From: Nitrospirales bacterium
Lineage (GTDB): Bacteria > Nitrospirota > Nitrospiria > Nitrospirales > UBA8639
NCBI GenBank assembly: GCA_031315865.1
Contig: JALDRJ010000002.1
Span: forward strand, 2,516,001 to 2,580,000
Length of the DNA stretch: 64,000 nucleotides
Reading direction: 5' to 3'
In this document: positions 13,247-61,856 of the stretch, piece by piece
Layout: every line of letters begins with the position of its first letter
Numbering within the stretch: the first letter of the stretch is position 1
Notes under the pieces: generated by a model
Told to the model about the DNA's origin: nothing
What the model saw: only the letters and a program-made list of their open reading frames with translations
Database searches by the model: none
Program-made: the position numbers and the translations under genes

Positions 13247-14860
13247 CTAATTGGGAAGATAGGGGGCAAGAGTTGGTTGTATTAATTTTGCAAACTGTAT
13301 GAGCTGTTGTCTGACCGCTGCTTCATCCTCGTTCGGCGGAATCATGGCTGTTAGCCGAATCAACGCGCCATCGGTTCGTCCTCTTGTCAAAGAATCCCAG
13401 AGAAGAAAGAGTTTGACTAGATATTCGTTAGTTTGAATCCTCTGTCGTTGTTGAAACCAGTAGAGCACCAGCTGTCGAGTGTCATCTTTCGTAATCATGA
13501 CTTCATTGGCGTCAAAGGATTGGCCGGTTTGTGTGGGAATTGAAATTGTTTTGGATGAGGTTATGGTCCAACCGCCACCAGGAATACAGCTCTTGGGTGA
13601 ATGAATGGACTGTCCTGACCGTTGAGATTTGTAGTAAGCGACGTAGAGATTGATGGGATGATCGGGGTTTACCGTATCACGATAGTCGGCAAGGAAATAA
13701 TCGTCAAAACGGAGGACATCGATATATTGCTGATCGAGAGCGCTCGTTCGCCCTTCCCATGATTTTATCACCAATGGAAAATCAAGGAAGGTTTGGCGAG
13801 GGGAAGCCATCTCTTCCCTGGCATCGAGCTGGTTCGAGACCATGCCAAGTGAAATGATAATGCCTAGGGCTGTTACAAACGCCCAGGGGAATCGAATTGG
13901 TCCTTGGTCTCTTAATTCTAGATGAGGGGTGGGGCTCGTGACTATTTCTGGATTTTTGTCTCGTTCGGTAAATGGGGCTATCGATTGTTGAATGGGACAA
14001 ATCTTTTTTAGAATCCACATTTCGACACCTAAGAGTCCCAACCCGAATACGAAAACAACCCATCCTTCAAAGAGATGCAAAAATCCATCAGCAGCTCCTC
14101 TTCCCCACATTTCTACGAGCAGGCCTATTACGCCGATTCGAAAACCATTCAAGAGAATTGAGATGGGTATACTTGAGAGAAACAATAAAATTCGCTTCCA
14201 CATTCGGTCTTTAAAAAAATAGGCGGATAAGAGAGCCAACGTCATCAGTGGGAAGAGAAATCGTAATCCACTGCAGGCTTCTACGACTTGAAGTTGAATG
14301 GGGCCAAGGTCAATGACGTTCCCATCCTGAAACGCCGTGATCCCCACGAGCTGTAGGCAGCCTACGCCAAGATTCGAAGAGATCAAACGCAGTTGCCAGG
14401 TAAGTCCTTGATAGAGAAATTGGGGCAAGGGAATGGTGACGAGCAACAGGCAGAGAGGAAAGACCAGGGATTTGGTTCCTTGGATACCGATGACGGATAA
14501 GACTAAGCCGACGATAGTTACCCAGAGTGAGAGATCTTGAATAACGAATAAGGTTCCAAGTTTTCCAAAAAAAAGCAAGATGACTCCCAAAACTACGATA
14601 AACGGTCCGAGCCAAGATCCTTTCCCATAGTAGGTGATGAGATCGTCTTTTTTTAGCCAGGCCAAGTAGATTGCAATAAATGGCACGAAGAGGCCGTGTC
14701 CATAATTCTCATTGCCAACCCAGGTGGCGGCTAATCGCTGAAGATTTTCCTGGTAGGTGAAAAATAATGTGAGGACAGCGGCTAGAACGCCAAAAGCGAA
14801 CCATCCTATCTGAAAATTTTGACCTGTTTGCGGAAAATACGTGGCTCGCGAATTGGACAC
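13247..14860 (-). CDS. Exosortase fused to C-terminal EpsI domain
   Basis: The N-terminal part (about 1-290) is a polytopic exosortase. The catalytic triad is visible: Cys 196 in VVEACSGLR, Arg 241 in LLNGFRIGVIG and His 262 in HLFEGWVVF. Residues from about 345 to 537 form an EpsI-type periplasmic domain (FPLVIKSWEG, YVAYYKSQRSGQSIHSPKSC, PGGGW). The enzyme should cleave and re-anchor proteins with PEP-CTERM tails, such as the product of 1345-2139. The exosortase-EpsI fusion and the VPIPSA tail together look more like the XrtD/VPLPA branch than XrtA, but I cannot score this. Start is GTG with a gggag site upstream. Confidence 0.9.
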   Translation of the reverse strand: MSNSRATYFPQTGQNFQIGWFAFGVLAAVLTLFFTYQENLQRLAATWVGNENYGHGLFVPFIAIYLAWLKKDDLITYYGKGSWLGPFIVVLGVILLFFGKLGTLFVIQDLSLWVTIVGLVLSVIGIQGTKSLVFPLCLLLVTIPLPQFLYQGLTWQLRLISSNLGVGCLQLVGITAFQDGNVIDLGPIQLQVVEACSGLRFLFPLMTLALLSAYFFKDRMWKRILLFLSSIPISILLNGFRIGVIGLLVEMWGRGAADGFLHLFEGWVVFVFGLGLLGVEMWILKKICPIQQSIAPFTERDKNPEIVTSPTPHLELRDQGPIRFPWAFVTALGIIISLGMVSNQLDAREEMASPRQTFLDFPLVIKSWEGRTSALDQQYIDVLRFDDYFLADYRDTVNPDHPINLYVAYYKSQRSGQSIHSPKSCIPGGGWTITSSKTISIPTQTGQSFDANEVMITKDDTRQLVLYWFQQRQRIQTNEYLVKLFLLWDSLTRGRTDGALIRLTAMIPPNEDEAAVRQQLIQFAKLIQPTLAPYLPN

Positions 14861-40740: not shown

Positions 40741-42060
40741 TTAGGGCATTGGTTGTTCAAGTCTCGTAGAGTTTTCTATATTCGTTGCCATTTCGTAAAA
40801 TTCATGTTCCAGGACATCCAGTGTATCATCCTTCCAGACTAATCTCTGGAAACGTGTAGCAAACGGCAATTGTCCTCCGATTGTAAAGCCAATTTTAGAG
40901 ATAATTTCTTCTGTCGTTTGTGGTACGGACGGGGTCACGATCTTAAAGATGAGGAGTCTCGTCCTTCTGTTGAGTGCACTCATGAATAAAGGGCCATTAT
41001 TAATTCCTAGATTCAAGAAACTGCTTTCATAGAGCGACATTCGTAGCCATACGTTCCATGAAGCTTCCCGAAACACCTCGAATGCAGTCAGTGCTGGAGG
41101 AAGGGGATCTAATGTCCGTTCCGTATCAAGGATGAACACAGGGAAGAATTGTGTGGAGTCGAGACGGTTCGCAAATTCTATCCATGCGTGTATGTTGCTG
41201 TTTCGTGCTTTCATGAATGAGTAATCGCGCAGGGTAATCGTGATTAATTTTCGGCCAGATAGACGAGCGGTCAACCATTGTGTCACATAGCGTATCCCCT
41301 GGGCAGGACTTCGAAGGCATCCCGCTTCTTGGGCAAATGGAGAGTCAGGATTGATGTTCAAGAGTTCTGATGGGTGATGCGAGATTGGTAAATGTGGTTC
41401 GTAGAGTTCCGGGTAGATGTGAGACCCCGCCCTGGTTCGGTATTGATGCACATGTTGACGTGAGGGGAGGAGCGTATATCCTGCGAATGAAGGGACGAAT
41501 GTCAAGATTGGCAACACGATGTTATGCAGTCGCCATCGTCTCGTTTCCGTGTCCACGGCGGATTCATACAGGGCCCGTTCCTCTCGAAAGCCATCATAGT
41601 TGCCGGGAACGATCACGAAGTGGATGTTCTCGAGACCTGCGTGACGTCGTGCGAGTTCTGCAGACGCAACAAACCAACTGACGTCGTATGTCACTGGAGC
41701 GACTTGAAGGTCGTAAAAAGCATAGAGTGTGTTATTGTTCATCATAAGGTCCGGATGATATTTCCGTGAAAGGTGTCGAGTGGGCCACAATGTAGCTCCA
41801 ATGAGTTGCCGACATATTTTATGCACCGAACGTCCTTGTGACGTGTGTGGTGTGCGGTAGCGAAGTCTTCGCAGAAGCCACTGCAAACCTTCGGATCGTA
41901 CGGTATCAATAAGGCTTGTGAGTTCGGTTTTGCTGGATCGAGCGTGTGAAGAATCTTGTTGCTGCATACATTGTGCTGAACATTTTGTGCAGGAACGTGC
42001 CGTATGGCGTGGGTAAAGATGTGTCAGGTCAAGGTTATTGTCGATAATTGAGACTAGCAA
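40741..42060 (-). CDS. Hypothetical protein, unknown family, minus-strand within island
   Basis: The 439-residue product has no motif I can name. Central features are LYAFYDLQVAPVTYDVSWFV, a strand-turn VIVPGNYDGFREE, RKLITITLRDYSFMKARNSN and VFILDTERTLDPLPP. Alternating strand-helix content suggests a two-domain Rossmann-like or GT-B-like enzyme. The start is a TTG at 42060; a Met at 41967 gives a shorter form without an obvious ribosome site. The gene is opposite to its neighbours. Its gene context (next to carbamoyltransferase and the FYF-FWGE family) suggests a glycosyltransferase-like role; that is inference. Confidence 0.5.
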   Translation of the reverse strand: MLVSIIDNNLDLTHLYPRHTARSCTKCSAQCMQQQDSSHARSSKTELTSLIDTVRSEGLQWLLRRLRYRTPHTSQGRSVHKICRQLIGATLWPTRHLSRKYHPDLMMNNNTLYAFYDLQVAPVTYDVSWFVASAELARRHAGLENIHFVIVPGNYDGFREERALYESAVDTETRRWRLHNIVLPILTFVPSFAGYTLLPSRQHVHQYRTRAGSHIYPELYEPHLPISHHPSELLNINPDSPFAQEAGCLRSPAQGIRYVTQWLTARLSGRKLITITLRDYSFMKARNSNIHAWIEFANRLDSTQFFPVFILDTERTLDPLPPALTAFEVFREASWNVWLRMSLYESSFLNLGINNGPLFMSALNRRTRLLIFKIVTPSVPQTTEEIISKIGFTIGGQLPFATRFQRLVWKDDTLDVLEHEFYEMATNIENSTRLEQPMP

Positions 42061-42177: not shown

Positions 42178-43590
42178 ATGACTAAGTCTCAAGTGGTTTC
42201 GACATCATCCCATGATCTTCCTGATGGAACGATTGTCTCGAATGAAAATATTCCTCCATTCTATTTTGTCGTGGTGTTTTGGGGTAAGCAATTTGCTCGA
42301 TACTTGACTCGCTATTGTTTGCCGAGTTTACTGTCGACCAAAAACCTTCCTGCTCTGGGGGCGATGTCGCAGCATAAGTTTCTCTTTTGCACGACGAAGG
42401 AAGATTGGAATTCTCTTACGCAGACGACTATTTTTCTGCGACTACAAAAGCATATTACCCCTCACTTTATCGAAATTCCTCCTGCCCCACCTGAGAAGTC
42501 TGGCTGCGAGCACATGGGCGTAGGCCATAAGCTCGCAGCGCAACTGGCTTTTCAGGACCGAGCCTGTGGTGTGTTTCTCACACCGGATCTCATGGTCTCT
42601 GATGGGACGGTTTTGTCATTGCTCAGATGTGCCAAAGCTGGCTATAAAGTCGTGTTAACGGCAGCGCTTCGGTTTAGTGAGGAGTCATGGTTTGAGCAAC
42701 TTAAGGGGTTTGGTTATCTTATGGATGAAGAGAGCCAGGATGCGTGTGATTCTCCTTTAACCTTGACAAGTCGACAAATGGTTCAAGCAGGAATCCAAAG
42801 CTTCCATAGTCAAACTCTACGCTACGAGTGGGAAGCGCCTTATTTTTCCAGCTTTCCTTGTGCTTGCTGGTGGCGAGTGCCTGGCGAGGATGGACTTGTT
42901 CTACATTCTCTCAGTTGGGCTCCATTTTTATGCGACTATTCGGCAATCTCGACGCATGATACGAGTGTGTTCGATGTCTGGACCTTAGATGGAGACTATA
43001 TTCATCAAAATTTTAAACAATCAGAGGATATTTATGTTGTGACCGATTCGGATGAAATGATGCTCGTGAGTTGGGCTCCATCAGAAGATCGTGCTCAATC
43101 CACTCGGCCGAACCCTATTAAAGGTCTTCCAGTAGTAGGAAAATGGGTCAAGGGCGGGATTCTTAGAGCAGCCATGCTTAGCGGAATATTTGACGAATTA
43201 AAACAGCGGATTTTTTTCTTGCCCGTGAGATGGCATGCGAAAGAACTCACTGCAAATTGGGAAGTGACGGAACGACGGGCCCAGCAGACTTTGCAACACT
43301 ACCTGTGGGATTGTAGGTCTGACTTGCCTGAGTCCGATGCAGGGTGTTACCCAAAATCGCATAAGACCTCAAAGACTTTCAACGAACATGTTCGCTACTA
43401 TAGTTTTCTCCCGATGGTGACAATTGGACGTCTATGGATGATTCTGTCTGATCTTTATATGTTCAGGCGACGACTCACTTGGAAACTGGGGTTGGCTATG
43501 CGTGGAGACTCAGAAGTTTGGGGAAGAATCTTTCGACGTGTGGGGATTATTTGGAAGACGCTTCGCGGAGTGCCAATCAGGAACTTGTAG
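42178..43590 (+). CDS. FYF-FWGE family protein, paralogue 1 (putative glycan enzyme)
   Basis: This 470-residue protein is one of five paralogues in the window. It carries all shared blocks: PFYFVVVFWGKQF near residue 27, FLFCTTKEDW, the central MGVGHK and ACGVFLTPDLMVSDGTV, KVVLTAALRF, ETLRYEW-type LRYEWEAPYF, HDTSVFDVWTLDGDYIHQNF and VVTDSDEMMLVSW. Acidic pairs in DGD, DSDE and TPDL-SDG fit a GT-A-like nucleotide-sugar binding fold, but this is a guess. The N-terminus has a 26-residue extension not found in the others. It precedes a carbamoyltransferase, 218 bases on. Confidence 0.7.
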   Translation: MTKSQVVSTSSHDLPDGTIVSNENIPPFYFVVVFWGKQFARYLTRYCLPSLLSTKNLPALGAMSQHKFLFCTTKEDWNSLTQTTIFLRLQKHITPHFIEIPPAPPEKSGCEHMGVGHKLAAQLAFQDRACGVFLTPDLMVSDGTVLSLLRCAKAGYKVVLTAALRFSEESWFEQLKGFGYLMDEESQDACDSPLTLTSRQMVQAGIQSFHSQTLRYEWEAPYFSSFPCACWWRVPGEDGLVLHSLSWAPFLCDYSAISTHDTSVFDVWTLDGDYIHQNFKQSEDIYVVTDSDEMMLVSWAPSEDRAQSTRPNPIKGLPVVGKWVKGGILRAAMLSGIFDELKQRIFFLPVRWHAKELTANWEVTERRAQQTLQHYLWDCRSDLPESDAGCYPKSHKTSKTFNEHVRYYSFLPMVTIGRLWMILSDLYMFRRRLTWKLGLAMRGDSEVWGRIFRRVGIIWKTLRGVPIRNL

Positions 43591-50004: not shown

Positions 50005-50799
50005 ATGCAACCACAGTATGGTGTCGTTTTACGAGATCTGGTCGTCGGTGTTTTGGATTGGAGGATGTGGGGACGATTGGGATGGTTAGAGATCAAGCGA
50101 CGCTATCGCCGAACTTTAATTGGACCATTCTGGACCACCCTGTCTCTTGGCATTTTCATCATGGCTCTTGGCATTGTATGGGCCCATCTCTGGAAACAAG
50201 AGCCTAAAGTCTATTTGCCGTTTTTATGTTCTGGATTTCTCGTCTGGGTGATGGTGTCAAGCATTATGACAGAAGGTGCGGCTGTGTTCTTTGCCGCGGA
50301 GGGAATCATCAAACAGTTACGCTTCCCGTATTCGATACTCGTCTGTTCCGTCGTGTGGAGAAATGTATTGGTATTTTTTCATAACCTCTTCATTTACGTG
50401 TTGGTTGGATTGTATGCCGGTGTCAACGTAACCTGGGCGACTCTCCTGGTAATTCCGGGTTTGTTTTTTGTCATATCAAGTGGATTATGGGTCGTGATTA
50501 TGCTTGGTCTTGCCTGTTCTCGATATCGAGATATCCAACAGGTGGTTTCAAGCATTTTGCAACTCTCGATGTTTGTGACACCGATCTTTTGGACACCGGA
50601 TCAACTCGGTGAACGCTTTGGGGCTTTTGTAGACTTTAACCTGTTGTACCATTTTGTCGATATCGTACGATCACCACTCTTAGGTCGTGCACCAACCCTT
50701 TGGAGTTGGATGTTCGTGTTGGTCGTCACGATCATCGGTTGGGCGATTACGCTTTTTGTGTATAGTCGATTTCGTCGACGGATACCTTACTGGGTGTAA
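50005..50799 (+). CDS. ABC-2 type polysaccharide exporter permease (Wzm type)
   Basis: This 264-residue permease has about six membrane helices with the cytoplasmic N-terminal MWGRLGWLEIKRRYRRTLIGPFW, the short amphipathic entrance typical of O-antigen/teichoic exporters. Segments IFMALGIVWAHLWKQ (near 55) and YRDIQQVVSSILQLSMFVTPIFW are family-like. It forms the membrane pore for a lipid-linked glycan with the ATPase encoded next. No wzx flippase is seen in this part, so ABC export of a finished polymer is the likely route for at least one product. Confidence 0.87.
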   Translation: MQPQYGVVLRDLVVGVLDWRMWGRLGWLEIKRRYRRTLIGPFWTTLSLGIFIMALGIVWAHLWKQEPKVYLPFLCSGFLVWVMVSSIMTEGAAVFFAAEGIIKQLRFPYSILVCSVVWRNVLVFFHNLFIYVLVGLYAGVNVTWATLLVIPGLFFVISSGLWVVIMLGLACSRYRDIQQVVSSILQLSMFVTPIFWTPDQLGERFGAFVDFNLLYHFVDIVRSPLLGRAPTLWSWMFVLVVTIIGWAITLFVYSRFRRRIPYWV

Positions 50800-50815
50800 C
50801 AAGGAGGTTTCAACG

Positions 50816-51577
50816 TTGGCTTCTTTGGTTCTCGACAATGTAACGGTAGACTTCCCTATTTATGGGTCACAGAAAACCTTTCGCCATGCCTTGTTTGAAA
50901 AGACCACTGGAGGGTTGATTCGACGAGATGGCAGTACGAATAAGCGAGTGACGGTTCGGGCGTTAGAAAACATTTCTATAAAGCTTGTGCATGGAGACCG
51001 GCTTGGTATAGTGGGACATAATGGTGCGGGAAAATCGACCCTCTTACGGGTATGTGCTGGGGTGTATGAGCCATCTCAAGGGAGAGTGATTATTGATGGA
51101 AAGGTCTCGCCCCTCTTCAGTACATCTCCTGGACTCGATGGCGATGACTCGGGATATGAAAACATCATGACCTGTGGTATGTATCTTGGGATGACACCCG
51201 AGGAAATTGTACGAAAGACACCAGAGATTGAAAAATTTTCAGAACTTGGCGATTATCTATCTTTGCCTGTTCGCACGTATTCCACTGGAATGCTCGTTCG
51301 GTTAGGATTTGGCATCGCGACATCGATTGATCCGGAAATTTTATTGCTGGATGAAGGACTTGGAGCGGGGGATGCACGTTTTGCCGACCGTGCGAAAGAA
51401 CGGGTCGACGCGCTGGTTGAGCGATCAAGTATCCTGGTTCTGGCTTCTCATTCGGATGCGTTAGTGAAAACGATGTGCAATAAGGCCGTGCTCTTACAGG
51501 GAGGACGCATTCTGGCTTCTGGAGGAGTGGACGAAGTGATTGAAGAGTATCACGCTATGAATCAGGGCACTGGTTAG
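50816..51577 (+). CDS. ABC polysaccharide exporter ATPase (Wzt type, no C-terminal domain)
   Basis: From TTG at 50816, with aaggagg 9 bases upstream, the protein has 254 residues. Walker A is GHNGAGKST (67-75), the signature motif is YSTGMLVRL, Walker B EILLLDEGL with the D-loop GAGDARF, and the switch His is in LASHSD. Long Wzt proteins carry a C-terminal carbohydrate-binding domain; this one ends after VIEEYHAMNQG, so it lacks it and resembles KpsT/RfbB-like ATPases. The chain terminus is therefore not recognised by this subunit. A longer frame into the permease gene is unlikely. Confidence 0.88.
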   Translation: MASLVLDNVTVDFPIYGSQKTFRHALFEKTTGGLIRRDGSTNKRVTVRALENISIKLVHGDRLGIVGHNGAGKSTLLRVCAGVYEPSQGRVIIDGKVSPLFSTSPGLDGDDSGYENIMTCGMYLGMTPEEIVRKTPEIEKFSELGDYLSLPVRTYSTGMLVRLGFGIATSIDPEILLLDEGLGAGDARFADRAKERVDALVERSSILVLASHSDALVKTMCNKAVLLQGGRILASGGVDEVIEEYHAMNQGTG

Positions 51578-51632: not shown

Positions 51633-53462
51633 ATGAGTGCCTTACGTCCGTTTTACTTTACCGTGGTGTTTTGGGGAGAAGAACACCGAGCCTATTTTAC
51701 AGATCTGCTCCTCGCCTCCTTACTTTCTCCCAATAATATTCCTGCCCTCAATAAACACCGAAACAGTAAGTTTCTCATCGTCACCACCAGGCAAGATTGG
51801 GAGCAGTTACAGAGTCACACTCTCTTTCTCCGGCTACGTGACTATATCGAACCAGTGTTCTTTGAAATGGCTTTTCCTACGAAACACGACTCAAAAATGT
51901 TGATCATGTCTCAGGGGCATAAACAAGTGGCCATGCGCGCGTACGAGGACAAAGCCTATGGAGTCTTTGTCACGCCAGACCTGATTTTGTCCGATGGTTC
52001 GGTTGCTGCTATGGAACGCTTAGCTGAACAAGGGAAGAAGGTCGTGTTATGTGTGGCGATTCGCTTTGCTCAAGAGACGTTGCTTGCCGCAATGAAAACT
52101 GAGGGATTTTATGCAGCTCGAAAGCCACTTGAGATTTCATCGCGAGACCTGATGCGGCTGGCATTGGCGCATTTACACACCGAAACTCTTCGCTATGAGT
52201 TTGACGCATCGTATTTCGCCGATACCCCAATTTCTGTCTATTGGTGGGCATCAAAGGCGGAAGCCATGATTATCTATAGCTTCAGTTGGGCGCCATTGGT
52301 CGTCGACTATGGCGCACTTCACCGACATGATACGAAGACGTTTGAAAAATGGACCTTGGATGGAGATTACATCTACCGAAACTTTCCAGAGGCCAACGAT
52401 GTGTACGTGATCACAGATAGTGATGAGATCTCGTTAGTCAGCTTCACGAAAGAGTCCGAACTGCATTTTGAACTGACTCCTGACAAAAGGATGGAAGACT
52501 ATGGAATCTTTAACCAGGTTTACAAAGTCTCGTTGATGCGTTCTCTGAAAGACAGTGACGTGATGGATCCACTCAAACGTGAAATTTTCTCTCAACCAGT
52601 AATGCTTCACTCGACTCAAATGAGAGAGGAGTGGGGTCGAACAATAGAAATGGCGAATTCTTTCATCACGCAGGCGTGTCGCTCCCCTACCTTGCAAGAG
52701 CAGTTTATGATGGATGTTGTTGAGCAGTCAGCAAGTAGCAAGTTTTCTCAAAGGGTACTAAATGATTTGCAAGATTGCTCGCAACAGGATGTCTTCCGTC
52801 TTTCAAGGGGGCGATACTTTTTCTTGTGGCTATGTGTGATACGGCCAAGACGGTGGCTGTTGAAGACTGGCCATGGCATTGGACAATTTACCGGATATTA
52901 TCGAGTGTACTGGATCTGGCGCTATCGTCGTTTTGTGTGGTGGCGATTAAAGGAAAAGCTCGGCCTCGTCGAAGAACGAGGGTTCGATTGGCAACAAGGA
53001 GGGTGGGAAGCTCCAGGTGTGAGTCCAGTCTGTCCGGTGTTTACGATCAAATGGATCTATCGATACCGTCGTTTTGTGTGGTGGCGGTTAAAGGAAAAGC
53101 TCGGCCTCGTCAAAGAACGAGGGTTCGATTGGCAGCAAGGAGGGTGGGAAGCTCCAGGCGTGAGTCCAGTCTGTCCATTATTCACAGTACGATGGATGTG
53201 GAACAATCGACGGATGTTGTGGAAAGAAAAAAGAAATTTTCTCAGAGTACTGAAGAACAAAGAATCCACGGGCTTGGAGGTTGATGAGCATCATATAGTG
53301 TGTAATTCTTCACAACATAATGAAGGCAAACTAGAAGCAAAATTTGGAGTTCCGCAAACCCCCATTTCTGTTTCTTTTGTCGAATCGAATACTACATCTC
53401 GATTAAGAACGACCAAATCGGCTTCATCAGTGACGAAAGAGACGAATGTTTATGATCGATAG
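51633..53462 (+). CDS. FYF-FWGE family protein, paralogue 2 (with tandem duplication)
   Basis: This 609-residue member begins MSALRPFYFTVVFWGEEHRA and has the shared blocks FLIVTTRQDW, MSQGHKQVAMRAYEDKAYG, FVTPDLILSDGSV, VVLCVAIRF and HDTKTFEKWTLDGDYIYRNF, then VYVITDSDEISLVSF and DPLKREIF. C-terminal to about residue 420 it carries two 47-residue copies of WxYRRFVWWRLKEKLGLV..FDWQQGGWEAPGVSPVCP, and a shorter third start. The repeat is rich in Arg and Trp. It lies after the ABC exporter genes and before the second SDR paralogue. Confidence 0.72.
   Translation: MSALRPFYFTVVFWGEEHRAYFTDLLLASLLSPNNIPALNKHRNSKFLIVTTRQDWEQLQSHTLFLRLRDYIEPVFFEMAFPTKHDSKMLIMSQGHKQVAMRAYEDKAYGVFVTPDLILSDGSVAAMERLAEQGKKVVLCVAIRFAQETLLAAMKTEGFYAARKPLEISSRDLMRLALAHLHTETLRYEFDASYFADTPISVYWWASKAEAMIIYSFSWAPLVVDYGALHRHDTKTFEKWTLDGDYIYRNFPEANDVYVITDSDEISLVSFTKESELHFELTPDKRMEDYGIFNQVYKVSLMRSLKDSDVMDPLKREIFSQPVMLHSTQMREEWGRTIEMANSFITQACRSPTLQEQFMMDVVEQSASSKFSQRVLNDLQDCSQQDVFRLSRGRYFFLWLCVIRPRRWLLKTGHGIGQFTGYYRVYWIWRYRRFVWWRLKEKLGLVEERGFDWQQGGWEAPGVSPVCPVFTIKWIYRYRRFVWWRLKEKLGLVKERGFDWQQGGWEAPGVSPVCPLFTVRWMWNNRRMLWKEKRNFLRVLKNKESTGLEVDEHHIVCNSSQHNEGKLEAKFGVPQTPISVSFVESNTTSRLRTTKSASSVTKETNVYDR
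52911..53192 (+). repeat. Tandem duplication, 2 x 141 bp, within paralogue 2
   Basis: Copy 1 is 52911-53051, copy 2 53052-53192, and a truncated third start follows at 53193. The copies are nearly identical in both DNA and protein, and the unit is a multiple of three, so the frame is kept. Few third-position changes suggest a recent duplication. Confidence 0.9.
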
Positions 53463-54391: not shown

Positions 54392-55066
54392 ATGACTCAT
54401 AACGATTCTGGTGAAATTCAATACCGAGAGGCCATCCAGTTAATGAAGGCCAGGCCGGAACGCCTCGGCTTGATGAGCGGATGGTCCTGGCACGATGATC
54501 CCAAGCGACTGGTGTTTTTTCTGGCGCGTTATAAGTTTGTCGCAAAAATGCTGGACGGTTGTGAGCGTGTGTTAGAAGTCGGATGTGGCGATGGATTTGG
54601 AACGCGTATTGTGACTCAAACAGTCAAGCATGTGACAGGGGTTGATTTTGATCCAGAGTTTGTGAACTCAGCAAAGACCATCATGTCGGAACGTTGGCCT
54701 GCTACCTATCTAGTCCATAATATGCTCGAAGGGCCGGTGCCGGGCACGTTTGATGGAGCCTATTCTCTGGACGTGTTAGAGCATATTTCCAAACAAGACG
54801 AGTCTCGGTTTATCGAAAATATGGTTGCCCCCCTGACTCCCCATGGCGTGATGCTCATCGGTACGCCATCGTCACAGTCACAGGCCTATGCATCGGAACA
54901 CAGCCGGATTGGCCATGTGAATTGCAAAGACCAGAAAGAACTCAAAGTGGTAATGCAGCGGTGGTTTCACAATGTATTTATGTTTTCGATGAATGACGAA
55001 GTCGTTCATACGGGGTTTCATCCAATGTCTCATTATAACTTTTGCGTTTGCTGCGGAAAGAAATGA
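54392..55066 (+). CDS. Class I SAM-dependent methyltransferase
   Basis: The 224-residue protein has RVLEVGCGDGFGTRIV as motif I, VTGVDFDPEFV as acidic loop and GAYSLDVLEHISK as motif II/IV, the common layout of a UbiE/Coq5-like methyltransferase. A C-terminal His- and Cys-rich tail (HYNFCVCCGKK) is unusual and might bind metal. It follows the SDR, like its counterpart at 35455 in the heptose module, although the sequences are not obviously close. The ATG at 54392 follows gagaag. The next gene starts 4 bases later. Confidence 0.85.
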   Translation: MTHNDSGEIQYREAIQLMKARPERLGLMSGWSWHDDPKRLVFFLARYKFVAKMLDGCERVLEVGCGDGFGTRIVTQTVKHVTGVDFDPEFVNSAKTIMSERWPATYLVHNMLEGPVPGTFDGAYSLDVLEHISKQDESRFIENMVAPLTPHGVMLIGTPSSQSQAYASEHSRIGHVNCKDQKELKVVMQRWFHNVFMFSMNDEVVHTGFHPMSHYNFCVCCGKK

Positions 55067-55070
55067 GGAT

Positions 55071-56480
55071 GTGAAGCCATTTTATTTTATCGTCTCTTTT
55101 TGGGGAGAGGAATTTCGTGAGCATTTTCTTCGTTTTTCCGTTGCGTCGCTTCTCGCACCTGGTAATGTGCCGAGCCTCTCGAATCGCACTCAGAGTCGTC
55201 TGATCGTTTGTACGACGAATGCCGACTGGGTGGCTCTGCAAGAAGAACCTCTTTTTGACCAATTTGTCTCATACGTTGAACCTGTTTTTGCTGAACTGAA
55301 GCGACCGGCTCCCGCCTTTCTCAAGCCCATTTTGCTCGAAAAGTATCGCCGTGGTACGTCCTGCCTTACTCCAGAAAATGGAGCAGAGAGTGATATCTGG
55401 ATCACCCCAGATGATGTCTTTCCTCCTGAGAAATATAAAGAATTGGAAGCCATTGGGAGAGAAATTGGACAAGAACTCATGGGTTCCCATCATTATGCTT
55501 TGAGAATCCTGTTTATGAGCACGGGACACAAAATTGGGGCGTGTCGGGCCTTTGGAGACCAAGCCAATGCCGTCTTTCTTGGAGCGGATCTCATGACATC
55601 AGATGGGACGGTTCAAGAATTAGAACGTTTGATGGATGAGGGACACAAGGTCGTTCTGACGGCGACTCTACGTTTTGCCCAAGACGAGTGTCTGGCTGCG
55701 TTTAAGGAGGCGGGTCACATGGTGCCAGATAAGCCTTTGATTCTTCAGCCTCGACAGCTGGTCAGTACGGTGTTCAAACATCTGCACCCTGAAACCGCGT
55801 GTTTTGAGTTTGACTCACCGTACTTTTGTGACACGGCAACCTCATCGCTTTGGAAAGTGTCTGGAGATGACGGTGTTCTGCTCCACAACCTGAACCTGTA
55901 TCCGCTGTTAGTCAATTACGAGGGTGTTGAAACTCATCATGCTGACTACTTTGATATCGGAGGGACGATCGATGGGAAGTATATTGCCTTGCATTTTGAT
56001 CCTCAGAAAGACATAACCATTGTCGCGGACTCTGATAGCTTTATGTTAGCCAGTTTCACTCCGCGAGGAGAGTACTATTATCCACTGACGACAGGATGGC
56101 GCAAGCGCCATCCATGGGTTGCAGAACGGTACAAAACACACTTGATCCGGAAAACGTTACATGGTCCAATGGGCGATCCGGTAAAACGACATTTTTATAC
56201 TGTCCCAATTCAGTTTCACAGTGAAGACCTCACTACTGTTTGGACAGAAGTCGAACAGCGTGCGGCTCGTGTGGCAAATCGTGCGGTTGCACAAGGAGGT
56301 TTTTTGGATACATTGCTGGGCATGTCGTGTTCTACGATCTCATTCAAGACTCTGTTCTCTCCGACAAATTTGCTGTCGTTTGCAACTCGACTGATGAAAA
56401 AACTACCCGAACGTCAGCAGCACAGACTCAAGCTGTACGTCAGACGACGCGGATGGTTATCCTCAGAAAAAGCAAATTGA
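55071..56480 (+). CDS. FYF-FWGE family protein, paralogue 3 (with inserted block)
   Basis: From GTG at 55071 the 469-residue product begins MKPFYFIVSFWGEEFREHF, matching the family start. A longer frame from 54993 overlaps the methyltransferase and is unlikely. An insertion of about 45 residues (CLTPENGAESDIWITPDD, then EIGQELMGSHHY) stands before the MSTGHKIGACRAFGDQ block and is unique to this copy. Other blocks are VFLGADLMTSDGTV, VVLTATLRF, FEFDSPYF and HADYFDIGGTIDGKYIALHF, where DGDYIYxNF is changed to DGKYIALHF, then VADSDSFMLASF. Its acidic residues at these two sites differ from the other copies. Confidence 0.7.
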   Translation: MKPFYFIVSFWGEEFREHFLRFSVASLLAPGNVPSLSNRTQSRLIVCTTNADWVALQEEPLFDQFVSYVEPVFAELKRPAPAFLKPILLEKYRRGTSCLTPENGAESDIWITPDDVFPPEKYKELEAIGREIGQELMGSHHYALRILFMSTGHKIGACRAFGDQANAVFLGADLMTSDGTVQELERLMDEGHKVVLTATLRFAQDECLAAFKEAGHMVPDKPLILQPRQLVSTVFKHLHPETACFEFDSPYFCDTATSSLWKVSGDDGVLLHNLNLYPLLVNYEGVETHHADYFDIGGTIDGKYIALHFDPQKDITIVADSDSFMLASFTPRGEYYYPLTTGWRKRHPWVAERYKTHLIRKTLHGPMGDPVKRHFYTVPIQFHSEDLTTVWTEVEQRAARVANRAVAQGGFLDTLLGMSCSTISFKTLFSPTNLLSFATRLMKKLPERQQHRLKLYVRRRGWLSSEKAN

Positions 56481-57528: not shown

Positions 57529-59301
57529 ATGGTCAATTCACAGAATGGCTTCTATTTTACCGTCGTGTTTTGGGGACAAGAACACCGAGAGTATTTTCTT
57601 CGCCTCTTAGTGCCTTCACTCCTCTCTCCGGGAAACCTTCCATCCTTGGAGAATGCGTCTGCCAGTCGGTTTCTTATTTGTACGACCACGAAAGATTGGA
57701 ATGCTCTCCAAGCTGATCTGGACTTCCTAGCTCTTCAACGAATCATTAAGCCTGTCTTCCTCGAAATTCCCATGCCCGCCCACTCTGACAATAAATACCT
57801 GGCTATGTCTGCAGGGCATAAACTTGCAACGGAAAAAGTTTTCACCGATCGAGCCTGCGGTGTATTTTTGACGCCAGATCTTGTTGTGGCGGATGGGGGT
57901 GTGTGCACGTTACAGGAACTCGCTCTTGCAGGAAAGGTCGTGGTTCTTTGCGCAGCCATGCGCTATACCTACGAGGGGGCAGTGCCAGAAATCGAGGCCC
58001 TCAGGCCAGACGGACCTGGGAAGCCCTTGGTCCTATCTCCTAGGCGATTGGCCAATATCGCCTTACGCCATATGCATGTTGAGAGCCTTCGGTATGACTG
58101 GGATGCGCCGTGGTTTGCCGAGATGCCCTTTAGTAGTTTTTTGCGGGCTCAAGGAAATCAAGGAATATTAATTCACAACTTTAATTGGGCTCCGGTGTTC
58201 GTGGATTATGCAAAACTCTCTGAACATCGTGTCGATACGTTTGAACATTCGACGATGGATGCAGATTACATCTATCAGAATTTTGGCGATTGCCAAGACA
58301 TTCACGTAATTCAAGACTCGGATCAATTCTTATTAATCAGCTTTACCAAAAAAGAGGATCTCCCAGGACATCTTGATAAGATGGCACTCCAACCGTCTTG
58401 GGAAAAGTCTTGGCCTTTGATTGGATATTATTGGAAGCTTCATAAGTTACGATGGCTACTCACGAGTGGCTCGATTGATCCGCTCAAGCGCAAACTTTTC
58501 CGCTTACCCGTTCGGTTACATTGCGGAGAAATTTCTGAATCTGAGTGGCGTCTGTTAGAGAAAAGGGCCGCGACGATTGTAACTAAAGCACTTTCACGTT
58601 TGACGTTGCTGGAATGGTTGTGCACACGCATCGTGCGCTTCGTACAGTCGAGTACGATGTGGCCCTTTTCCCAGTTGAACCAAGTTGATAGCAGGGGGGG
58701 TCCCTCCGAAGCATCAAATCAGGAAATTATGAATCAGGCAGGAGTTGGGACGTATCGGATTTGGGTGATGAGTCCGCTCCTCACCAGTGGAAAGTGGTAT
58801 TGGGAGGTGTTCTCCTCAAATGTGGGTACAGCGAACGGAATGGTGGCCGATACCGTGTCGGTCGGGGTAATTGCTCACGATCATTCTATTCGAAGAGAGA
58901 TTGGATGTATGAAAAATGGATGGGGATGGCGGTGTGATGGGTATAAAATGAATCGTGGACGACGAACGAGCTATGGGAGTCCTGTTCATGCAGAAGATGA
59001 ACTTATCATGATTGCGGTGGACCTTGATAGCGGTGCCCTCTGGTTTGGGCGAAATGGAGATTGGTTTGAGTCGAGCGACCCCATGCATGGAAAGGACCCA
59101 GCATTTAAAGGGTTGCCATCATCTCTCTATCCGGCTGTGTCGTCGAAGCACGGAGGTCAAGGGACAGCAAACCTCCACATCCGTGTGACATCGGACTCTT
59201 GGACGTACAAGCCCCCACATGGCTTTCGATCGTTAACGGAAGTCGTACCGGGAAGAGAGCCTTCTGTCCCAATTTCTCAGGTTTCTGCGAAGGTAGGGTG
59301 A
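57529..59301 (+). CDS. FYF-FWGE family protein, paralogue 4, fused to SPRY-like domain
   Basis: Residues 1-395 match the family: GFYFTVVFWGQEHREYF, FLICTTKDW, MSAGHKLATEKVFTDRACG, FLTPDLVVADGGV, YDWDAPWF and HRVDTFEHSTMDADYIYQNF, then VIQDSDQFLLISF. The C-terminal part (about 420-570) is a SPRY/B30.2-like beta-sandwich: SGKWYWEV, VSVGVI, GWGWRCDGYK, SYGSPVHAEDELIMIAVDL, LWFGRNGDW, AFKGLPSSLYPAV and PPHGF. SPRY domains bind proteins or ligands and are rare in bacteria. Here it may bind the glycan or an anchor. I am confident of the SPRY shape, less of its role. Confidence 0.75.
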   Translation: MVNSQNGFYFTVVFWGQEHREYFLRLLVPSLLSPGNLPSLENASASRFLICTTTKDWNALQADLDFLALQRIIKPVFLEIPMPAHSDNKYLAMSAGHKLATEKVFTDRACGVFLTPDLVVADGGVCTLQELALAGKVVVLCAAMRYTYEGAVPEIEALRPDGPGKPLVLSPRRLANIALRHMHVESLRYDWDAPWFAEMPFSSFLRAQGNQGILIHNFNWAPVFVDYAKLSEHRVDTFEHSTMDADYIYQNFGDCQDIHVIQDSDQFLLISFTKKEDLPGHLDKMALQPSWEKSWPLIGYYWKLHKLRWLLTSGSIDPLKRKLFRLPVRLHCGEISESEWRLLEKRAATIVTKALSRLTLLEWLCTRIVRFVQSSTMWPFSQLNQVDSRGGPSEASNQEIMNQAGVGTYRIWVMSPLLTSGKWYWEVFSSNVGTANGMVADTVSVGVIAHDHSIRREIGCMKNGWGWRCDGYKMNRGRRTSYGSPVHAEDELIMIAVDLDSGALWFGRNGDWFESSDPMHGKDPAFKGLPSSLYPAVSSKHGGQGTANLHIRVTSDSWTYKPPHGFRSLTEVVPGREPSVPISQVSAKVG

Positions 59302-59310
59302 TAAGAGCCG

Positions 59311-60498
59311 ATGCGGCCATTTTATTTTGGAGTTGTGTTTTGGGGAGAGGAATTTCGAAGCTACTTTCTTGATTATTGTCTGAGTTCCTTGCTGGCTCCT
59401 GGGAATATTCCGGCACTAGAGAATAAGACGGCCAATCGGTTTCTCATCTGCACGACGGCGGAAGATTGGGAGCAGATGAAAAAACATCGAACGTTTCTTC
59501 TTCTCGAAAACGAGATGCAGCCGGTGTATTTAAATCTGGATGACCTCGAACCCTCTCATGATAAGATGCGATTCATGTCACGCGGACATAAGGCGATCGC
59601 TTGCAAGATGCACGAAGACCGTGCGTATGGCACCTTCATTTATCCCGATACCATATTTTCCGATGGGGTGGTTGTACATTTACAGCGACTGGCTGGAGAG
59701 GGAAAAAAAGTCGTCGTAGCCCATTGTCCACGATTTGCGAACGAAGGGTTTCTCGAGCAATTAAAGTCCAAACGCTTGCTGGAAACTGGCTCTCCTCTTT
59801 CGTTGAAGGGGCAAGAGTTGCTACGGCTGGCGATGCCGCATATGCATTCTGAAACGCGTCGCTACGAATGGGAGGCTTCGTATTTTCATGGGGAGATGCC
59901 GGCGTTAATTTGGTGGAGAGTGGATCAAGAGAGTCTCGTCATACACTCGTTTACCTGGGCTCCATTGCTGTTTGATTATGAGCAAGTCAAGATACATGAT
60001 ACCAAGACCTTAGAACATTGGACGATCGACGGAGACTACATTTACCAAAATATCTCCAGCCTTGAGGACGTGCACGTTGAAACAGACCCTGAAGTTATGA
60101 CGTTGCTCAGCTTTACGCCAGAATCGAGCCTGACTTATCTGCCCCTTAACCCAAAACTCCTCATGAGGCTTCCAGTGGTGGGGACGTGGTATCGAAAATT
60201 ATGTTTACGCAACGTCTTGAATGCCCCTCAAGTTGATCCTCTAAAGCGACAACTCTTTCGTTTGCCTGTGTATGTTCCAAAAGTGTTGCAAGAAGAACGA
60301 GTGCAGAGGCTAAACGCGAACATTGAGCGGTTGTTTCAGGAATCTTCGAAACCGTTAACAGACTTCGAACAAAGAATGTTCTATTGGCTTCGCATTGTGA
60401 ACGAAGGTATTGGTCAGCATCTAGGGTATTGGGTCGCGAGACGACCATTTCTCAACCGCGTTTTTGGTAAGCGTAGTATCTCGCGGTCGATAGTATAA
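59311..60498 (+). CDS. FYF-FWGE family protein, paralogue 5 (compact)
   Basis: The 395-residue protein is the shortest of the five and defines the core domain. It starts MRPFYFGVVFWGEEF and has NRFLICTTAEDW, MSRGHKAIACKMHEDRAYG, FIYPDTIFSDGVV (TPDL changed to YPDT), KVVVAHCPRF, ETRRYEWEASYF, HDTKTLEHWTIDGDYIYQNI and VETDPEVMTLLSF. DPLKRQLFRLPV ends the conserved region. It lies 9 bases after paralogue 4, so both are likely cotranscribed. An IS3-family element follows downstream. Confidence 0.72.
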   Translation: MRPFYFGVVFWGEEFRSYFLDYCLSSLLAPGNIPALENKTANRFLICTTAEDWEQMKKHRTFLLLENEMQPVYLNLDDLEPSHDKMRFMSRGHKAIACKMHEDRAYGTFIYPDTIFSDGVVVHLQRLAGEGKKVVVAHCPRFANEGFLEQLKSKRLLETGSPLSLKGQELLRLAMPHMHSETRRYEWEASYFHGEMPALIWWRVDQESLVIHSFTWAPLLFDYEQVKIHDTKTLEHWTIDGDYIYQNISSLEDVHVETDPEVMTLLSFTPESSLTYLPLNPKLLMRLPVVGTWYRKLCLRNVLNAPQVDPLKRQLFRLPVYVPKVLQEERVQRLNANIERLFQESSKPLTDFEQRMFYWLRIVNEGIGQHLGYWVARRPFLNRVFGKRSISRSIV

Positions 60499-60723: not shown

Positions 60724-61014
60724 ATGGCCCGAGGATCTCGACGCAATCATTCCCCAGCCTTTAAAGCGAAGGTGGCGTTAGCCGCCGTCAAGGGAGAGCG
60801 CACCTTAGCTGAACTAGCCGAGCACTTTGATGTTCATCCGAATCAGATCCAGGATTGGAAGAAGCAGTTGGTCGCCAAGGCCGAGCATGTATTTGGAACG
60901 GGACCGGGAGATGTCGCGACGCAGGAGCAGGTCCAACAGCGGCTTCATGCGAAGATTGGGCAGCTGACGATGGAGAAGGATTTTTTAGCACAGGCGCTCG
61001 GGCACGGCCGATGA
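60724..61014 (+). CDS. IS3-family transposase OrfA
   Basis: The 96-residue product is a helix-turn-helix protein (HSPAFKAKVALAAVKGERT, then LAEHFDVHPNQIQDWKKQL) with a C-terminal leucine-zipper-like tail (IGQLTMEKDFLAQAL). It binds the inverted repeats. The stop lies in the region read through by -1 frameshifting, which produces the OrfAB transposase. A strong aaaggag site precedes the ATG. Confidence 0.92.
   Translation: MARGSRRNHSPAFKAKVALAAVKGERTLAELAEHFDVHPNQIQDWKKQLVAKAEHVFGTGPGDVATQEQVQQRLHAKIGQLTMEKDFLAQALGHGR
60981..60987 (+). promoter_or_regulatory. -1 programmed frameshift heptamer TTTTTTA
   Basis: The heptamer follows the X XXY YYZ rule in the orfA frame (gat ttt tta). The orfB frame is -1 relative to orfA and is open across the site. 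This matches the known IS3-family way to make OrfAB. I did not test for a stimulatory stem-loop. Confidence 0.75.
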
Positions 61015-61856
61015 GCGAGCGCAAAGGGTCGATTACGGCGACACACACTCTTTCCATCACTCGCCAGTGTCAGCTGTTGGGAGTCCCGCGTTCAAGTGCA
61101 TACACGCGACCTCCGAAAGTCTCTGCCGCAGAGCTTGAGCTGATGCGCGAGCTCGACGCCCTCTATCTGCGCTGGCCCTTCTACGGCAGTCGACGCCTGT
61201 GCGTCGAGCTTCGGCACCGCGGCTATCGTGTGAATCGCAAGCGGGTCCGCCGGTTGATGCGACAGATGGGGCTGCGAGCCATCTATCCGAAGCCCCGGAC
61301 CAGTCAAGCGGGTAAGGGCCACAAGATCTATCCCTACCGATTGAGAGGGCTTGCCATCACGCGGCCCAACCAGGTCTGGGCGAGTGACATTTGCTATATC
61401 TCGATGGCCAAGGGGTTCATGTATCTGACGGTGATCATGGATTGGTATGCACGACGGGTGTTGGCCTGGCGTGTCTCGAACACGCTCGACACCGAGGCCT
61501 GTATTGACGCGCTGGAAGAAGCCCTCGGACGCTACGGTGCCCCAGAAATCTTCAATACTGACCAAGGGGCTCAATACTCCAGTGAGGCGTTTACCACCGT
61601 CCTCCAGGCTCATGGAGTCACGATCAGTATGGATGGGAAGGGCCGCTGGGTGGATAATGTGTTTGTCGAACGGTTGTGGCGCAGTGTGAAGTACGAAGAT
61701 GTGTACTTGCGAGCCTATGAGACTCCAGACAAACTGCGGGCGGGTCTGACTCGCTATTTCTCATTCTATAATATGGAACGCCGGCATCAAGCGTTAAACC
61801 GGCAAACACCCGATACCGTATATTTTACTGATCGCAAGACGATACAGGCCGCGTAA
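61011..61856 (+). CDS. IS3-family transposase OrfB (integrase catalytic domain)
   Basis: The integrase domain has the DDE acidic residues: Asp in WASDICYI, Asp in IFNTDQGAQYSS and Glu in VFVERLWRSVKYE. SRRLCVELRHRGYRVNRKRV lies before the catalytic core, as in IS3/IS150 types. The gene is read either by frameshift from orfA or from the ATG at 61011, whose ATGA overlaps the orfA stop. The reading frame is intact, so the element may be active. Confidence 0.93.
   Translation: MSERKGSITATHTLSITRQCQLLGVPRSSAYTRPPKVSAAELELMRELDALYLRWPFYGSRRLCVELRHRGYRVNRKRVRRLMRQMGLRAIYPKPRTSQAGKGHKIYPYRLRGLAITRPNQVWASDICYISMAKGFMYLTVIMDWYARRVLAWRVSNTLDTEACIDALEEALGRYGAPEIFNTDQGAQYSSEAFTTVLQAHGVTISMDGKGRWVDNVFVERLWRSVKYEDVYLRAYETPDKLRAGLTRYFSFYNMERRHQALNRQTPDTVYFTDRKTIQAA

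Follow-up and report, generated by a model that had tools for sequence, protein, structure and literature searches.

Among eukaryotic SPRY domains that have been characterised, most bind peptides rather than glycans. The bacterial examples known come chiefly from secreted proteins and phage tail proteins. The domain has been described in phage tail fibres and other tail proteins, and phage tail proteins have been proposed as its origin (PMC7824862, PMC8195603); no prokaryotic conflict systems with SPRY had been seen (PMC8195603). We found no literature description of SPRY on a glycosyltransferase and, in the papers found, no GT-A glycosyltransferase with a C-terminal SPRY such as the one described here. 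The window, a stretch of 64,000 nucleotides from a Nitrospirales bacterium, holds a surface-glycan island in which the fourth of five paralogous proteins ends in a SPRY domain. The combination of domains is real, conserved and unusual, and its parts are known ones. The features to which we refer are the following.

57529..59301, + strand: paralogue 4, predicted GT-A-like N-terminal domain, linker and SPRY; 590 aa, with an orthologue of identical layout in the genome RBC_NOB5
57529..58653, + strand: N-terminal domain of paralogue 4 (residues ~1-375), predicted GT-A-like nucleotide-sugar transferase fold, common to the five paralogues
58660..58749, + strand: linker of paralogue 4 (residues 378-407), low model confidence
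58750..59253, + strand: SPRY beta-sandwich of paralogue 4 (residues ~408-575); the Pfam match to residues 422-549 lies at 58792-59175
42178..43590, + strand: paralogue 1, without SPRY
51633..53462, + strand: paralogue 2, without SPRY; C-terminal W/R-rich tandem repeats
54993..56480, + strand: paralogue 3, without SPRY; insertion of ~60 residues in the N-terminal domain
59311..60498, + strand: paralogue 5, without SPRY; starts 9 bp past the paralogue 4 stop
50005..51577, + strand: polysaccharide ABC exporter pair, ABC2_membrane permease and ABC_tran ATPase (Pfam)

An earlier note, made from the letters of this DNA, had read a SPRY domain at residues ~420-570 of paralogue 4 from an ordered series of motifs. 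These motifs were located in the protein: GKWYWEV (421-427), VGV (445-447), GWGWRCDG (464-471), YGS (482-484), VDLDSGALWFGRNGDW (497-512), LYPAVSS (533-539) and PPHGF (562-566). The profile search that the note had proposed matched SPRY (PF00622) with E=9.9e-10 and 39 bits against a cut-off of 26.3. This match, the only Pfam match of the protein, spans residues 422-549 and profile positions 1-118 of 121; the tail searched alone gave E=1.5e-10, and the RBC_NOB5 orthologue matched the same profile independently (E=4.1e-11, 43.5 bits). The PRY family, the N-terminal subdomain of B30.2 (PRY-SPRY), had no Pfam match at E<=1 in either protein. A frameshift or a chance motif was rejected as the source of the signal, given an intact reading frame from ATG to stop, a score well above the cut-off and an orthologue of identical layout. 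As the note had claimed, SPRY is fused to one paralogue only, the other four being without a PF00622 match. It is also the sole SPRY of the 3.78-Mb genome by Pfam profile search and the sole one in a SPRY search of 198 genomes drawn from the phylum, the listing of which does not name RBC_NOB5. Among 299 genomes of the Kiloniella phylum a single one had a SPRY match, namely the Kiloniella genome on which the draw was centred.

The alignment used for a template-free AlphaFold2 model of paralogue 4 combined all five paralogues, the corresponding proteins of another genus and 18 SPRY segments from bacteria. Mean pLDDT was 84, with values of ~90-98 over most of the N-terminal domain. Residues 408-552 formed a beta-sandwich (pLDDT mostly 80-97, but weak in the loops 434-438 and 542-547), one strand of which, 408-413, precedes the Pfam match; the modelled domain of ~408-575, which follows the low-confidence linker, lies close to the bounds first proposed. 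A Foldseek search of the PDB with this model returned SPRY domains as top matches (RyR SPRY2, ASH2L, DDX1, RanBP9/10, TRIM67), the best isolated domains giving a TM by target of 0.6-0.74 and an rmsd of 2.5-3.5 A. Thus neither of the two outcomes named in advance as fatal to a SPRY assignment, no profile hit and a structure other than a bent beta-sandwich, was obtained. The profile and fold evidence are not fully independent, because the folding alignment held SPRY relatives picked by sequence. Taken by profile and by predicted fold, paralogue 4 carries a true SPRY domain.

The earlier emphasis on SPRY as a mainly eukaryotic domain was not supported as put. By sequence, the relatives found are SPRY domains of bacteria and phages, carried by extracellular or tail proteins. 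The domain has the fold of eukaryotic SPRY/B30.2 proteins (the PDB matches above, TM by target at most 0.74), but its sequence similarity to them is marginal, with a best solved SPRY chain at E=0.34 in the PDB, it lacks a PRY match and its partner domain is another one. On the bacterial and phage relatives, and on a comparison with eukaryotic SPRY domains that covered solved structures, import from a eukaryote is disfavoured. With bacterial and phage proteins, such as a secreted PKD/SPRY protein of LaPlata_bin-2928 (L024) and tail SPRY proteins of jumbo phages, it shares not only PF00622 but also a common pattern: SGKWYWE, DxDSGxLWFxxNGxW, GDPxxGxxPAF, YPAxS and PPxGF. Phage relatives are ~23-37% identical to it, and a virion structural family is among its PHROGs matches. 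We therefore assign the domain, from its sequence relatives, to the bacterial/phage type. Its setting is nonetheless another: in the relatives, SPRY is a module of secreted or virion proteins. In nine SPRY-only proteins that were scanned it was accompanied by LamG, PKD, bacterial Ig, F5/8C and DUF7483 domains and by secretion signals. Paralogue 4, by contrast, begins at its first strand without a leader and has a predicted GT-A-like partner. A pattern scan of 84,980 prokaryote genomes yielded 1 fusion and 31 SPRY-only loci spread over many phyla; since it used only the patterns DYIYQNF and [SK]GKWYWE, further fusions may have escaped it. The sole match in plasmid records was SPRY-only (Azospirillum). 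No phage-encoded fusion of SPRY with the N-terminal domain was seen in the viral scan, and tblastn did not find the N-terminal domain in phage records.

The check for other proteins of the same two-part layout, also proposed in the note, produced a single case, the syntenic orthologue encoded by the Nitrospirales MAG RBC_NOB5 (G011, L023). This genome belongs to another genus within the family, and its gene order matches that of the whole island, with the SPRY fusion in the identical slot. The two proteins are 48% identical over residues 8-575: 47.8% in SPRY, 48.9% in the N-terminal domain and 25% in the linker stretch 366-393. Within SPRY, identity was 56% in strands and 44% in loops, with the loops 508-526 and GGQGTA well kept. 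dN was 0.49 in both the SPRY part and the N-terminal domain, dS being saturated so that no dN/dS is given. The near-equal identities indicate that both modules have been held under similar constraint. For its N-terminal domain, paralogue 4 showed the lowest identity of the five orthologue pairs (48.9% versus 51.6-68.8% for the others) and the longest branches (FastTree). The same tree paired every paralogue with its counterpart at a support of 0.98-1.0; the five duplications and the fusion are therefore older than the genus split. A recent capture of SPRY is rejected on the orthologue in another genus, the similar conservation and the tree pairing, and the fusion is an old one that has been retained. 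A SPRY domain kept across genera on a GT-A-like protein would mean that SPRY is used inside a biosynthetic pathway.

The N-terminal domain belongs to a family without a database name. It is 35-43% identical among the five island paralogues over their common part and had no Pfam or NCBIfam match at E<=1, glycosyltransferase families included. Modelled alone it reached a pTM of 0.86, and its PDB matches were GT-A glycosyltransferases and nucleotidyltransferases: COLGALT1, SpsA, TarP, RmlA and glycogenin, at E ~1e-5 to 1e-4. The matches to solved glycosyltransferases cover only ~150 residues, the nucleotide-binding half, with a TM by query of 0.25-0.37. We compared the full paralogue 4 model with a viral structure library as well; here an uncultured Caudovirales phage protein, A0A6J5PWU5, gave a full-length match (TM by target 0.83, E=4e-27), and behind it came SPRY proteins of phages and numerous GT-A proteins. 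From these comparisons we read the domain as GT-A-like by prediction and its catalysis as putative. It would share a predicted nucleotide-sugar-binding half with the GT2 enzymes SpsA and TarP, COLGALT1 and glycogenin, but differs from GT-A glycosyltransferases in its low TM by query and in lacking both a Pfam GT family match and a DxD. No classical DxD metal motif was found, the first D being missing in 12 of 12 aligned sequences. The equivalent stretch reads TPD..(V/L)xDG (TPDLVxxDG), with TPD, APD, YPD, GAD or GPE followed by DG; D122 and G123 are invariant in 12 of 12 aligned domains and D117 in 11 of 12. Members of the family were found in 6 of the 396 Nitrospirota genomes searched, this genome counted, and in 1 of the 349 searched from the Kiloniella phylum. 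Some are joined to TPR repeats; SPRY occurs in the family only on the two orthologues of paralogue 4. Distant relatives of the domain lie at loci L074, L075, L058, L010 and L011, some with TPR-like repeats, and a zinc-type dehydrogenase gene adjoins those at L010, L011 and L058.

Upstream, the island encodes a GT4 enzyme (22408) and a WbpL-like initiating transferase (24719); it also has sugar-nucleotide enzymes, an aminotransferase, a carbamoyltransferase, an N-acetyltransferase and methyltransferases. Among the genes scanned between ~30.7 and 60.5 kb, Pfam recognised no glycosyltransferase, which makes the five paralogues natural candidates for the missing enzymes; they are likely the transferases of an island for an ABC-exported polysaccharide. 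The unnamed family would then probably fill the missing-glycosyltransferase slots of such islands. An anti-phage defence reading returned no PADLOC match at E<=1. Because only 9 bp separate paralogues 4 and 5, a single transcript for the two is suggested. In the exporter, the 296-aa ATPase (50687-51577) has ABC_tran as its sole Pfam domain, and no C-terminal carbohydrate-binding domain was recognised in it.

We consider it somewhat probable that paralogue 4 is a glycosyltransferase-like enzyme whose SPRY module tethers it to an acceptor glycan or to a protein of the pathway, both the transferase activity and the tethering being inferred. The N-terminal domains of the five diverged paralogues would probably supply successive glycosyl transfers of the island. 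In paralogue 4 a flexible linker would hold the C-terminal beta-sandwich as a non-catalytic tether, which may bind either the acceptor glycan as it grows or some protein of the assembly and export machinery and so concentrate this one transferase locally at its substrate. Weighing against this proposal are the partial, low-TM nature of the glycosyltransferase matches, the missing DxD and the fact that the ligands of most characterised eukaryotic SPRY domains are peptides and not glycans. As to the predicted ligand, glycan or partner protein, the sequence does not tell the two apart. That SPRY recognises a short peptide of a partner protein (another island enzyme or the exporter), in the manner of eukaryotic SPRY domains, and acts as an assembly adaptor rather than a lectin, is a serious possibility that we place a little short of even. 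The closest solved folds are indeed peptide- or protein-binding SPRY domains (for example ASH2L, RanBPM/9 and DDX1), and the gene lies amid pathway enzymes, 9 bp before paralogue 5. However, the relatives by sequence are phage tail and extracellular proteins with LamG, F5/8C and PKD, which fit glycan or surface binding better, and no candidate peptide was identified. A bolder form of the glycan-binding reading, to which we give only a tentative and minor place, is that a phage-type SPRY receptor-binding module was domesticated as a reader of the bacterium's own nascent surface polysaccharide and fused to a new GT-A-like family, so that, of the five paralogues in the assembly line, one enzyme would recognise its acceptor. 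Paralogue 4 would offer a simple bacterial system for asking whether SPRY can bind glycans.

The incomplete DxD could alternatively mean that the N-terminal domain is a catalytically dead, glycosyltransferase-like scaffold and that binding is the protein's sole active function, for instance in chain-length control or export regulation. Consistent with this are the branches of paralogue 4, whose orthologue pair has the longest of the five, and an ABC ATPase without a carbohydrate-binding domain match, since with ABC_tran alone the island might require another protein to read the glycan. Still, D117, D122, G123 and H183 are among the residues that never vary across the five paralogues, paralogue 4 included, as expected from one common activity, and we regard a dead scaffold as unlikely. 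Very improbable, and in practice excluded by the conserved orthologue, is a SPRY tail that was recently and neutrally captured from a phage tail gene and has no selected function. Phage SPRY domains are relatives, and GC is higher in the SPRY part than in the N-terminal domain (50.9% versus 47.6%), but GC3 matches (48.4% and 47.7%), the two parts have equal dN, with dS saturated, and SPRY is present in another genus, conserved as well as the N-terminal domain.

Several other features of the window were observed. In paralogue 2, two tandem W/R-rich repeats of 141 nt (47 aa) at 52911-53192 are 88% identical, and the RBC_NOB5 counterpart has similar repeats. Directly past the paralogue cluster, an open reading frame at 60855-61856 resembles an IS3-type transposase (integrase-like by eye). 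A 438-aa island protein without a Pfam match is encoded on the minus strand at 40741-42060, with an RBC_NOB5 counterpart on the minus strand of L019 (9789-11003). The window also encodes an exosortase/EpsI-type protein at 13247-14860 (Pfam Exosortase_EpsH, DUF3485) and, at 1345-2139, a small protein with a PEP-CTERM-like end.
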